Positions 6,062 through 10,689 of a stretch of DNA of 11,243 bases are shown here, one piece after another (positions within the stretch are counted from its first letter, which is position 1; every line of letters starts with the position of its first letter). The DNA comes from Deltaproteobacteria bacterium RIFOXYA12_FULL_61_11 (GTDB lineage: Bacteria > Bdellovibrionota_F > JAHFAK01 > YA12-FULL-61-11), in NCBI GenBank assembly GCA_001799195.1, contig MGSU01000100.1:1092-12334 (forward strand), in the 5' to 3' direction. Position numbers and translations under genes: made by a program. The notes below the pieces were generated by a model. That model saw only the letters and a program-made list of their open reading frames with translations, did no database searches and was not told the origin of the DNA.

Positions 6062-6090
6062 TTGTTCTGTGACGGCCCCCAGGGTATTCT
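6062..6090 (+). promoter_or_regulatory. Candidate promoter of the radical SAM gene, placed for a leaderless transcript
   Basis: TTGTTC (6062-6067) and TATTCT (6085-6090) are separated by exactly 17 nt, as in a sigma-70 promoter, with three and four of six consensus matches. Transcription would begin about 7 nt after the -10, at or next to the ATG at 6098. That would make the mRNA leaderless, and would fit the odd position of GGAGG directly against this ATG with no spacer, where it could not serve as a normal ribosome-binding site. Confidence 0.3.
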
Positions 6091-6097
6091 GTGGAGG

Positions 6098-7750
6098 ATG
6101 AGCGCACCTTCTCGACAGGATAGGGTCCACGACCTCGACGTCCCAACCTTTCTCGCCGCCGAGCCGGCCATGCACGATCGCTTGTGTCGCCGGTATGACC
6201 TCGAACTCCCGCGCCTGACGGCACTCGCGGGAATGAACCGCGAGGAGCGTGGAACAGGCCGGCGTTTTCGCCTGTTGCTCGTCCCGGAAAATCTTTTTCG
6301 GCTCGATGGACTGGTGCCTTCTCTTTGCCGCCTCCTCGGGTTGAGCTGTCCGAGCCCTTTTCCGGAACTGCGCCCAGCCCCCTTGATAACCCTCGCTACG
6401 CGCTTTCGCTTCCACCTGGTCGCTCTCCGAGAATGGTGTTCTGGGCTTGGCCTCGAGCTCGAGTGGGTCGACTTGGTGGGGGTAGGAGATCTGGTCGAGA
6501 CAATCCAACAACTGGCCGAGGCTTCTCCCTCAACCCGGATGCACTATGCGGAGGCCCAGATCTATGCCTCCAGCAGCCGCGAACCGGTGGAGGACCGCCT
6601 GCTGCGGTACCTGGGGATCCTCTGCGATGAGGTATTCATCGGTCCCTCGGTGCTGCACCTCGATCCGGCCAATGCCTGCAGCGCGAACTGCTTGTTTTGC
6701 GGCTACCACTCGCCCTTGATAGAGCGTAAGACGTGGCGATATCCCGGTTGGAGCGAGCAGCAGCTCGACATGGCGTTGTTCCCCGACCTCGTGAAGGATC
6801 TGAGGGAGCTGCATGTCGACCAGCACATTGCGGTTGCCGGGGAGGGAGAGCCTTGTTCTCATCCCCACGTGTTCGAGATGCTCCGCATGCTCACCGAACA
6901 GGGTCTGCGGGTCAGCCTGTACACCAATGCCCTGCGCCTGGACCGTGAACGCTTGTGCGCGTTGGTTGAGCTCGGCCTGGACCAGATGGTGCTCAATGTT
7001 TCAGCGGGTACCGCGGAGACCTACCAGAGGATACATCCCGGGGCTCCGCAGGGCTTTTTCTTGCAGTTGGGCAGGGATTTGACGGCGATGATGGCCCATC
7101 GGAGAGCGCGCGGGTTCACCCGAACCGAGCTCGTGCTCAAACAGGTCCTGACCACGCTGAATGTCCAAGAACTCCCGGCAATGGTCGAGCAGGCCTGTGC
7201 GATCGGCGCGGATGTGCTGTATGTCGAGCTGATGCACGACACCGGCAACTATACCCGCCACCTGAAAGTGGGACCGGACCGGCTGGTCGAGCTACGATCC
7301 ATGCTGGAAACGGCAGCTCGGCGCTGCCAAGAACACGGCATCGTTTTCTACGACCATCCGATGCTCCAGCTCGAGGCAATGCTGGCTGCCGAGAAAGGTT
7401 CAAGTGAGGCCGAGGCGACCTCGAGCAAGCAGCATCTCGCCATGGCGCGGGGGTGCTTTGCCGGATGGTTTTTCTCCCGAGTCTACTCGGACGGGCAGAT
7501 AGGGTTCTGTTGCCATCATCGCAAGCTCGGGACCTTGCGGCAGAACAGTTTTCGGGACCTCTGGTTCTCGCCCCGCTATCATCGTTTCCGGCTCGCCGCG
7601 AAGCGTTTCGATCCCGCGGAGAACGAACGTTGTGACAACGACCGCTGGCTGCTGGACGAGGATTGCGCCCGGTGCGGCAACTTCCACACCGGAGAGATCT
7701 ACTACCAGGACCTCCGGTTGCTCGGCCTGTTGAGGTACGTGCGGCGTTGA
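6098..7750 (+). CDS. Radical SAM protein with C-terminal SPASM-like iron-sulfur domain
   Basis: A 550-residue enzyme. The radical SAM cluster motif C-x3-C-x2-C is CSANCLFC (C194, C198, C201), preceded by a strand (VLHLDPAN). GEGEP (248-252) is the variant of the GGEP motif that contacts S-adenosylmethionine, and SLYTNALRL and LNVSAGTAETY are later barrel strands. The C-terminus carries C453, then DGQIGFCCHH (C471, C472), C512, C523 and C526 (CARC), the cysteine layout of SPASM or twitch domains that hold auxiliary 4Fe-4S clusters. These domains often mark peptide-modifying or small-molecule radical enzymes; no substrate can be named and no precursor peptide was found nearby. The first roughly 190 residues show no domain I recognise, an unusually long N-terminal extension. 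The start is taken as ATG 6098; a TTG at 6062 in frame would add 12 residues but lacks a ribosome-binding site. The gene is divergent from the beta-helix lipoprotein. Confidence 0.9.
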   Translation: MSAPSRQDRVHDLDVPTFLAAEPAMHDRLCRRYDLELPRLTALAGMNREERGTGRRFRLLLVPENLFRLDGLVPSLCRLLGLSCPSPFPELRPAPLITLATRFRFHLVALREWCSGLGLELEWVDLVGVGDLVETIQQLAEASPSTRMHYAEAQIYASSSREPVEDRLLRYLGILCDEVFIGPSVLHLDPANACSANCLFCGYHSPLIERKTWRYPGWSEQQLDMALFPDLVKDLRELHVDQHIAVAGEGEPCSHPHVFEMLRMLTEQGLRVSLYTNALRLDRERLCALVELGLDQMVLNVSAGTAETYQRIHPGAPQGFFLQLGRDLTAMMAHRRARGFTRTELVLKQVLTTLNVQELPAMVEQACAIGADVLYVELMHDTGNYTRHLKVGPDRLVELRSMLETAARRCQEHGIVFYDHPMLQLEAMLAAEKGSSEAEATSSKQHLAMARGCFAGWFFSRVYSDGQIGFCCHHRKLGTLRQNSFRDLWFSPRYHRFRLAAKRFDPAENERCDNDRWLLDEDCARCGNFHTGEIYYQDLRLLGLLRYVRR

Positions 7751-7792
7751 GTTCCTGAGGATACGCGATCGGCCGAGGGGTGTGTCGGTGTT

Positions 7793-7858
7793 GTCCCGGC
7801 CCTTACCGTTCCTTCTGGTACAACGGGGCCTGTTCCTGATCGCTATCGAGGAGAACGG
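7793..7858. repeat. Direct repeat copy A (displaced atpC 3' end)
   Basis: Aligns without gaps to 8961-9026 with 55 of 66 identical bases, including uninterrupted blocks of 16 and 17 bases. The period is 1168 bp. Copy A ends at the base before the ATG of the SGNH gene. Copy B contains the stop and last codons of the working atpC gene, so A is the displaced copy. Confidence 0.9.
7803..7858 (-). pseudogene. atpC: Decayed 3' fragment of atpC
   Basis: Read on the minus strand, this stretch encodes LLDSDQEQAPLYQKER and a TAA stop, against FLEVDQEQARLYQKEI and TAA at the end of the real atpC. Eleven of the 17 aligned codons are identical and six differ, all of them amino-acid changes (Ile to Arg, Arg to Pro, Val to Ser, Glu to Asp, Phe to Leu, Gly to Val); none is silent. 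No start or upstream epsilon sequence is present, so this is a non-functional remnant. It fills most of the 108-nt space between the radical SAM and SGNH genes and supplies the GAGGAG ribosome-binding site (7848-7853) of the SGNH gene. Confidence 0.85.
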
Positions 7859-8974
7859 ATGGGCAAGACGCTCCTCTTCGCCGTTTGCACGTTTGGTGTT
7901 CTCCTGGAAGTGCTCTCCCTGGCTTTCGTCTCGTGGTTCGATTACCGGATCGGGCTTGCTGTCCCCGATATCCACCAACCCTTCAGCAGTTTTTTCGTCG
8001 CCGACCGTCAACTCGGGTGGGACACACCCGGCCTCGTCCGGTCGAGCGAAAAGCTGGTGCCCGGCAAGCACTCTTGGGCGTCCTCATATGGAGATTCCTT
8101 TGTCTATTCGTCGGAAGTTCAAGAATCTATGAGTTGGCAAAACCAATTCCAGCGATTGACCGGCCAGGAAATCCTCAATTTTGGCGTGTGCGGCTATGGA
8201 ACCGACCAGGCCTTGCTCAAGCTCGAAAAGCTCTACACGCGCTTTCCGACACCGGTCGTGTTCTTCGGCCTGTTGCCGGACAATGCGCTGCGGAACGTGA
8301 GCGTCTTCAAAATGTTTTATTTTCGGCAGGATGGCGACCCCTATCTGAAACCCAGATTCATGCTCCACGAGGGTCACTTGGTGTTGTACCGCCCACCTGT
8401 CGGGTCCGCGTCGGACTATTCCTTGTTGCACGATATCGAGGTCGCCCGCTCCATTGCTGCACGGGATTACTGGTATCAACACATGCTCGAGGTTTTCGGT
8501 TTCGATCTCCTCACCGGCAGGGGGTTCCCCTACAGTCTTGAAAGTATCGAAATCCTGCTCGGAGCAATCCGGCGTTCCCGTCGCGCTGGAGAGGTCGGAC
8601 CGTTGTTACTCGACGAGACCTCCGAGGTCAGGCGTATACTGTTCCTCGTGCTCGAGAGATTCCTCGGGTTCGCCCGTAGGAAGCAGTTTACCCCTGTCAT
8701 CATCCTGAATTGTGCGCGCATCGATCTCGGTACCCCGTATCTGCACGTACTCTCGGATTTCCTGCGTGCCAACGAAGTTCCCTCTATCGATATGTGTCGC
8801 ATGCTGTCCCGAGAGGTCACCGACGGCACCTCGACAATGGACATGCTCTATCATGGGGAACACTATTCCGAGCGGAGTTATGGGGTTCTCGCTCGCGCCG
8901 TCGCAGCCCTTCTCGGTGATCGTTCGCTCGAGGTCCGGTGGGGGGGGGGAGAGCAGGCAGGTCCCGACCCTTAG
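7859..8974 (+). CDS. SGNH/GDSL-hydrolase-like protein with N-terminal membrane anchor
   Basis: A 371-residue protein. Residues 4-26 are hydrophobic with Lys3 before them, a signal anchor or uncleaved signal peptide that places the domain outside the cytoplasmic membrane. Block I is SSYGDSF with the likely nucleophile Ser80; block II is LNFGVCGYGTDQALL (106-120), very typical of one SGNH subfamily; a block III Asn is probably N142 in LLPDN. The C-terminal block is YHGEHYSERSY with His335, but the Asp expected three residues before that His is His332, so the catalytic dyad may be altered. Family members are esterases or acyl-transfer enzymes, often acting on glycans or lipids; no substrate can be assigned. 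The start is clear: GAGGAG ends 5 nt before the ATG. Past about residue 355 the sequence is low complexity, encoded by a run of ten G (8940-8949) and ending GPDP. The stop overlaps the atpC stop on the opposite strand. The gene is bracketed by direct repeats. Confidence 0.8.
   Translation: MGKTLLFAVCTFGVLLEVLSLAFVSWFDYRIGLAVPDIHQPFSSFFVADRQLGWDTPGLVRSSEKLVPGKHSWASSYGDSFVYSSEVQESMSWQNQFQRLTGQEILNFGVCGYGTDQALLKLEKLYTRFPTPVVFFGLLPDNALRNVSVFKMFYFRQDGDPYLKPRFMLHEGHLVLYRPPVGSASDYSLLHDIEVARSIAARDYWYQHMLEVFGFDLLTGRGFPYSLESIEILLGAIRRSRRAGEVGPLLLDETSEVRRILFLVLERFLGFARRKQFTPVIILNCARIDLGTPYLHVLSDFLRANEVPSIDMCRMLSREVTDGTSTMDMLYHGEHYSERSYGVLARAVAALLGDRSLEVRWGGGEQAGPDP
8940..8949 (+). repeat. Homopolymer of ten G near the 3' end of the SGNH gene
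   Basis: Ten consecutive G residues lie inside the coding region, encoding the end of Trp361 and Gly362-364. A one-base loss would replace the last residues and open the frame across the atpC antisense strand to about position 9089. It could vary by slippage or be a sequencing or assembly artefact. Confidence 0.8.
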
Positions 8975-9026
8975 ATTTCCTTCTGGTACAACCGGGCCTG
9001 TTCCTGATCGACCTCGAGGAAGCCGG
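8961..9026. repeat. Direct repeat copy B (resident atpC 3' end)
   Basis: Partner of 7793-7858, 55 of 66 bases identical in the same orientation. It covers the last 17 codons and stop of the intact atpC gene, 10 bases beyond its stop, and the final codons of the SGNH gene on the other strand. Because the atpC frame runs through it undisturbed, this is the functional copy. Confidence 0.9.
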
Positions 9027-9210
9027 CCCCAACCTCGATGCTCTGACGCTGACCGCCCTGGCGGATCTGGACGGAGCCGGGCACGGTGATGGAGAGCAGG
9101 CGGGCGTGGCCGGGTAGGACCCCGATCTCGCCCATTTCCGTGGGGAGCACCACCTCGTCGGCTTCCCCGGAGAACAGGACCCGGGTGGGGGAGACGATCT
9201 CGAACTTCAT
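8971..9210 (-). CDS. atpC: F1Fo ATP synthase epsilon subunit, short form
   Basis: 79 residues matching the N-terminal beta-sandwich of F1 epsilon: MKFEIVSPTRVLFSGEADEV, then LPTEMGEIGVLPGHARLL and a closing strand GAGFLEVDQEQARLY. This domain sits in the central stalk and couples gamma rotation to the Fo c-ring. The usual protein is about 130-140 residues, with a C-terminal helical hairpin that inhibits ATP hydrolysis; that part is entirely absent here, as in a few other bacteria with short epsilon. The start is firm: TGAGGTGA, which includes the atpD stop, supplies a ribosome-binding site a few nt before the ATG, and the gap to atpD is 9 nt, indicating translational coupling. The TAA stop shares bases with the TAG of the convergent SGNH gene, so no terminator fits between them. 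Confidence 0.93.
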   Translation of the reverse strand: MKFEIVSPTRVLFSGEADEVVLPTEMGEIGVLPGHARLLSITVPGSVQIRQGGQRQSIEVGAGFLEVDQEQARLYQKEI

Positions 9211-9219
9211 CGCGTCACC

Positions 9220-10689
<1,470 letters not shown>

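Follow-up and report, generated by a model that had tools for sequence, protein, structure and literature searches.

Duplicated atpC 3′ end around a single SGNH-hydrolase gene in a bacterium of the Bdellovibrionota_F

Integrative elements use the 3′ ends of genes, among them tRNA genes, guaA, prfC and rlmH. Homology-facilitated illegitimate recombination in natural transformation has reportedly been described by de Vries and Wackernagel in 2002, Meier and Wackernagel in 2003 and Prudhomme et al. in 2002, and insertion with long target duplication is said to have been described in 2000 by Nobusato, Uchiyama, Ohashi and Kobayashi (Gene 259:99). For restriction-modification genes of H. pylori, insertion with long target duplication is illustrated in the part of PMC1643837 that cites Nobusato et al. 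2000; a passage of PMC3031569 speaks of “long and variable target duplications”, and one in PMC4978471 presents a restriction-modification cluster flanked by direct repeats. Small variable segments in bacterial species were mostly attributed to illegitimate recombination in PMC2884548, where homology-facilitated illegitimate recombination is discussed as well.

Here, we analyzed a window of 11,243 nt, i.e. the whole stretch of DNA under study (contig MGSU01000100.1, positions 1,092 to 12,334 of the forward strand, assembly GCA_001799195.1), from Deltaproteobacteria bacterium RIFOXYA12_FULL_61_11 (GTDB Bdellovibrionota_F; JAHFAK01; YA12-FULL-61-11). The genome comprises 4.64 Mb in 342 contigs with a completeness of 87%, so that gene absences are provisional. 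The locus can fairly be described as a gene-end duplication around one gene: two copies of the atpC end flank a gene for an SGNH/GDSL-type hydrolase.

Insertions with long target duplication place one or a few genes within a long direct repeat of host sequence, and no transposase or inverted repeats are recognised. The atpC locus is similar in both respects, as its insert is flanked by a target-derived repeat (60 bp, 52/60 identical, from the atpC end) and brings with it neither a transposase nor terminal inverted repeats. Unlike this locus with its SGNH hydrolase, the published cases are mainly restriction-modification genes, a cargo that is usual and not required, and were found by comparing two strains. 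We provisionally assign the locus to this class, whose defining feature is a related genome with an empty site. The nearest mechanism is homology-facilitated illegitimate recombination. To judge from how it works, integration with homology at one end and an illegitimate join at the other can leave foreign DNA next to a duplicated stretch of the target, and a gene for a ComEC homologue was found in the genome. However, the differences between the two copies do not look like allelic divergence, with all changed codons being non-synonymous. The locus shares with integrative elements at gene 3′ ends the intact host gene end and the second end copy beyond the insert, but it has a one-gene insert and lacks a recognised integrase, second site or related element. 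The variable segments of PMC2884548 resemble it as short gene-scale differences beside direct repeats, whereas most repeats there are shorter than 30 bp.

Overall, the repeat most likely dates from an old gene insertion or local DNA copying event and is a scar of a kind already described in bacteria; neither a new mobile element nor a new class of element is indicated.

The direct repeat and the atpC gene

On the plus strand, the locus reads radical SAM gene (stop at 7750), spacer of 42 bp (7751-7792), left repeat copy, SGNH gene (ATG at 7859) and right repeat copy within atpC. The left neighbour is a radical SAM/SPASM gene (6062..7750; PF04055 E 2e-12, PF13186 E 3.4e-9) on the plus strand, in the same direction as the SGNH gene; its open reading frame was read from a TTG, and the true start may be later.

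The core of the direct repeat consists of 60 bp (7793-7852 and 8961-9020), which align without gaps at 52/60 identical positions and have sharp ends. Local alignment gave a score of 80 (best of 500 shuffles: 32) and no homology beyond the 60-bp limits of either copy. The original prediction had placed the repeats at 7793-7858 and 8961-9026 with 55/66 identical bases. This count is right, although the final six bases agree at just 3/6 positions and do not belong to the homologous core. It had also noted correctly that the last base of the left span (7858) abuts the ATG of the SGNH gene, whose reading frame begins at 7859. A third copy of the 60-bp sequence is absent from the whole genome, where the next best match is 16 bp.

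Based on sequence comparison, the right copy (8961..9020, minus strand) comprises the last 15 codons of atpC, the stop codon and 10 bp downstream, and lies within an intact gene. The left copy (7793..7852, minus strand) is an orphaned piece of the same gene end (87% identical). It retains the atpC reading frame and stop, and 4/4 changed codons are non-synonymous. Because every changed codon is non-synonymous, the left copy looks non-functional; such a pattern is expected of a dead copy and not of two functional alleles. This bears out the earlier view of one true gene end and one decayed copy. The divergence between the copies amounts to 13% (95% interval 6-25%). The eight differences are clustered: twice, three neighbouring bases have changed (P 0.0008 if sites were independent), a pattern not explained by simple drift.

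Scans for further features of the repeat and its surroundings were negative: an RNA hairpin in the left copy was not significant (z -1.57), promoter and terminator scans gave no excess over shuffles, the tRNA scan revealed no tRNA, and the repeat scan detected no terminal inverted repeats at the insert ends. According to the list of open reading frames, the SGNH gene alone occupies the interval between the copies, and the window contains no recognisable gene for an integrase or another mobility function, in agreement with the original prediction.

The atpC gene itself (8971..9210, minus strand) encodes a short form of the F1 epsilon subunit of ATP synthase with 79 aa, as seen from its translation and a PF02823 match (E 1.5e-22). 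This match covers the beta-sandwich domain only, and the C-terminal helical domain is apparently missing. The comparison within the phylum covered two genomes in all, the analyzed one and a distant one. Since the latter also has a 79-aa epsilon subunit (L097:442-681), the short form is native and not caused by the duplication event. Downstream of atpC, that genome has a different gene in the same orientation. Searching genome contigs with atpC retrieved only epsilon subunits of 32-51% identity.

The SGNH/GDSL-type hydrolase gene between the copies

The bracketed segment (7853..8960, plus strand) spans 1108 bp and is nearly flush with one coding sequence, a gene (7859..8974, plus strand) for an SGNH/GDSL-type hydrolase of 371 aa with an N-terminal membrane anchor and the motifs GDSF, NFGxxGYG and a conserved H335. 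Pfam gave only a sub-threshold match for the single sequence (E 0.14). In an alignment of 13 sequences, G78, S80, N107 and H335 are invariant and D79 nearly so; a profile matches GDSL structures (best E 1.7e-5), and several of the aligned relatives match GDSL families. The predicted assignment to the SGNH/GDSL hydrolase superfamily therefore stands. An AlphaFold model calculated from the sequence alone, without an alignment, reached a mean pLDDT of 37 and was not used.

Relatives of the protein occur in 24/386 genomes, the analyzed one among them. None were detected among viral contigs, and the plasmids yielded one weak match on an archaeal plasmid. The gene is absent from the other genome of the phylum, a relative too far removed to count as an empty site. 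Paralogues and homologues of the radical SAM gene in this and other genomes have no adjacent SGNH relative on their short contigs, and an old pairing of the two genes was rejected on these grounds.

In terms of composition, the bracketed segment has a GC content of 0.569 (18th percentile of 1.1-kb windows) and the SGNH gene a codon score at the 32nd percentile, both relative to a genome sample; nothing in composition or codon usage marks the gene as foreign. Both of its ends involve the repeat. The left copy contributes GAGGA of the GAGGAG Shine-Dalgarno motif at the usual spacing, and when it was deleted in silico, no such motif remained at the usual spacing before the ATG. For this reason, the present 5′ end of the gene looks secondary. 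In the genome sample, 43% of ATG-started open reading frames carry a Shine-Dalgarno-like motif upstream, compared to a background of 14%. The right copy, read on the plus strand, supplies the final codons and the stop of the SGNH gene, so that its stop codon (8972-8974) overlaps that of atpC (8971-8973). As most homologues end about 10 residues earlier than the window protein, near the right junction, the last residues and the stop look acquired from the atpC end. The 3′ end of the gene also contains a run of 10 G (8940..8949, plus strand), 11 bp before the right copy. Just nine G/C runs of at least 10 occur in 1.72 Mb of this genome, and the tract could be phase-variable or reflect assembly uncertainty.

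Other bracketed loci in the genome and in control DNA

We surveyed 1.72 Mb (37%) of the same genome for two-copy direct repeats. At L197:16169-17588 (contig 291), a direct repeat of 48/49 bp (92% identical), which ends exactly at the TGA stop of a 55-codon gene, brackets a DUF4143/AAA_14 ATPase gene. The layout is the same as at the atpC locus; the sequence is unrelated. DUF4143 as a recurring bracketed cargo was considered and rejected, since no bracketing repeat surrounds any of the nine other DUF4143 genes in the genome. L258:9753-12441 (contig 53) has a 161-bp direct repeat (97.5%) around a 2.4-kb insert with a GC content of 0.48 (2nd percentile) versus 0.60; one reading frame in this insert is weakly similar to an IrrE-type peptidase, and a DDE transposase gene is located just outside. 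At L129:13905-15256 (contig 5), a 240-bp repeat (80%), which comprises the 3′ end of a gene for a REP-associated tyrosine transposase as well as sequence past this end, encloses a 0.9-kb insert with a GC content of 0.47 (2nd percentile). Several GCCGAGTCCGGC palindromes lie around an AT-rich OB-fold gene at this locus.

The remaining two loci are of a different kind or less clear. At L155:15896-17182 (contig 20), 73 bp from the interior of a 331-codon gene were copied to a position 1215 bp upstream of the original, with no inserted gene. Judged by eye, a 45-bp direct repeat (91%) at a contig edge, L257:15-752 (contig 52), lies in an apparent type I methylase C-terminal region and flanks a small HEPN-like reading frame. 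Thus, foreign-looking DNA between long direct repeats occurs in this genome (L258, L129), as does the copying of gene fragments free of cargo (L155). No shared ends among the bracketed loci were seen by eye in the junction listing.

As a control, 0.87 Mb of atp loci from other genomes contained one comparable repeat, and the repeat rate in the analyzed genome cannot be called special. Other genes between duplicated atpC ends, for which the original prediction had suggested a search, were not found with certainty in 80 related atpC loci. The sole case, in an unrelated genome, is doubtful: 91 bp of the atpC 3′ end are repeated perfectly 2861 bp downstream (L065:6281-6371 and 9142-9232), with a VapC-like reading frame in between, and this exact identity may be an assembly artefact. 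In addition, dispersed repeat families of 60-70 bp are present in many contigs of the analyzed genome (L139:1-62, L170:3-71, L174:1-70 and others), with some copies at contig ends; they are possibly miniature elements that break assembly.

Insertion, local copying and other explanations

The explanation which we rank highest, without granting it quite an even chance, is an old insertion at the atpC 3′ end with long target duplication, via one-sided recombination of incoming DNA. A segment now carrying only the SGNH gene would have inserted at the atpC 3′ end in an ancestor, whereby 60 bp of the target (the 15 last codons, the stop and 10 bp beyond) would have been duplicated, one copy per side. 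While atpC would have been kept intact, the far copy would have lost its function, drifted and, by chance or selection, come to serve the new gene as its Shine-Dalgarno region. The SGNH gene would accordingly be the newcomer, and its probable entry route would be one-sided homologous or illegitimate integration, with no site-specific recombinase involved. This account fits the sharp and unique repeat and the order of intact gene end, insert and orphan end; the dead-copy pattern of codon changes and the two ends of the SGNH gene point the same way, other bracketed inserts are present in the genome (L197, L258, L129), and no SGNH gene exists in the second genome of the phylum. Neither Ku nor reverse transcriptase was found in the analyzed genome at its 87% completeness. 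Retro-insertion, considered in view of the coding-sequence-only insert and the G tract near its 3′ end, was rejected as no reverse transcriptase was found in this 87% complete genome.

Several observations speak against insertion. Composition and codon usage of the SGNH gene are ordinary, and random insertion does not predict an insert of almost exactly one coding sequence, with 6 bp before the ATG and the stop within the right copy. Moreover, a gene fragment was copied at L155 with no gene inserted, the nine other DUF4143 genes are unbracketed, the differences between the copies are clustered beyond simple drift, and control DNA shows a repeat rate that is not clearly lower. A close rival, possible and yet in our view less probable than insertion, is local copying, with nothing mobile involved: the SGNH gene would already have lain convergently beside atpC, and template switching or repair synthesis would have placed a copy of 60 bp from across the SGNH/atpC boundary 6 bp ahead of the SGNH start. 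This is a smaller event than a 1.1-kb insertion, and the overlapping stops (TTAG) resemble those of long-settled convergent genes. It is likewise consistent with the ordinary composition, with L155 and with the similar repeat distances (1168, 1215 and 1371 bp). Yet the older arrangement, without the left copy, would have had no Shine-Dalgarno motif and hence poor translation, unless some bases have since been replaced, and the foreign-looking bracketed inserts at L258 and L129 are left unexplained. A tandem duplication, which the original prediction had also considered, would give an identical order of parts: the SGNH gene and the atpC end would have been doubled as a 1168-bp unit, and the outer SGNH copy would then have disappeared, which orphaned its atpC end. 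We consider it unlikely, given that it requires two events and the clean removal of a whole gene, with no trace left in the 42-bp spacer, and that the original upstream region would have belonged to the SGNH copy that was lost.

The original prediction had likened the locus to integrative elements, with the atpC 3′ end in the role of attachment site, and had considered a minimal one-gene cassette mobilised in trans or the scar of a larger element. Its anatomical part, i.e. insertion at the atpC 3′ end with an intact gene end and a displaced far copy, fits the locus and is what usually results at tRNA genes and other conserved gene ends; eight tyrosine recombinase genes are also located elsewhere in the genome. 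The integrative-element form is not supported, as the window has no recognised mobility gene, the insert has no terminal inverted repeats, the 60 bp have no third copy in the genome, and the 80 related atpC loci show no cargo between matching atpC ends apart from the doubtful case of L065. Because the repeat and the cargo of L197 are unrelated to those of the atpC locus, there appears to be no shared attachment sequence, and we regard this explanation as very improbable. Least credible of all is an assembly or binning artefact. An assembly of 342 contigs at 87% completeness might invite it, but copies that differ by 13% cannot have been produced by a k-mer join, and both lie within one contig of ordinary composition.

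If insertion is the correct explanation, the locus would represent a clear single-gene example of gene gain beside an essential operon, with the operon unbroken and no recognised mobile element; a host gene fragment would have been turned into the ribosome-binding region of the newcomer, and the divergence of about 13% would make it a dated scar. A broader conjecture, which we think improbable, is that single genes, foreign or local, are repeatedly acquired by this lineage at the ends of genes, with target duplications of 48-240 bp, through a process linked to RecA or replication that depends on neither integrases nor end-joining nor reverse transcriptase, and that new genes thereby gain translation signals from the duplicated host gene end.
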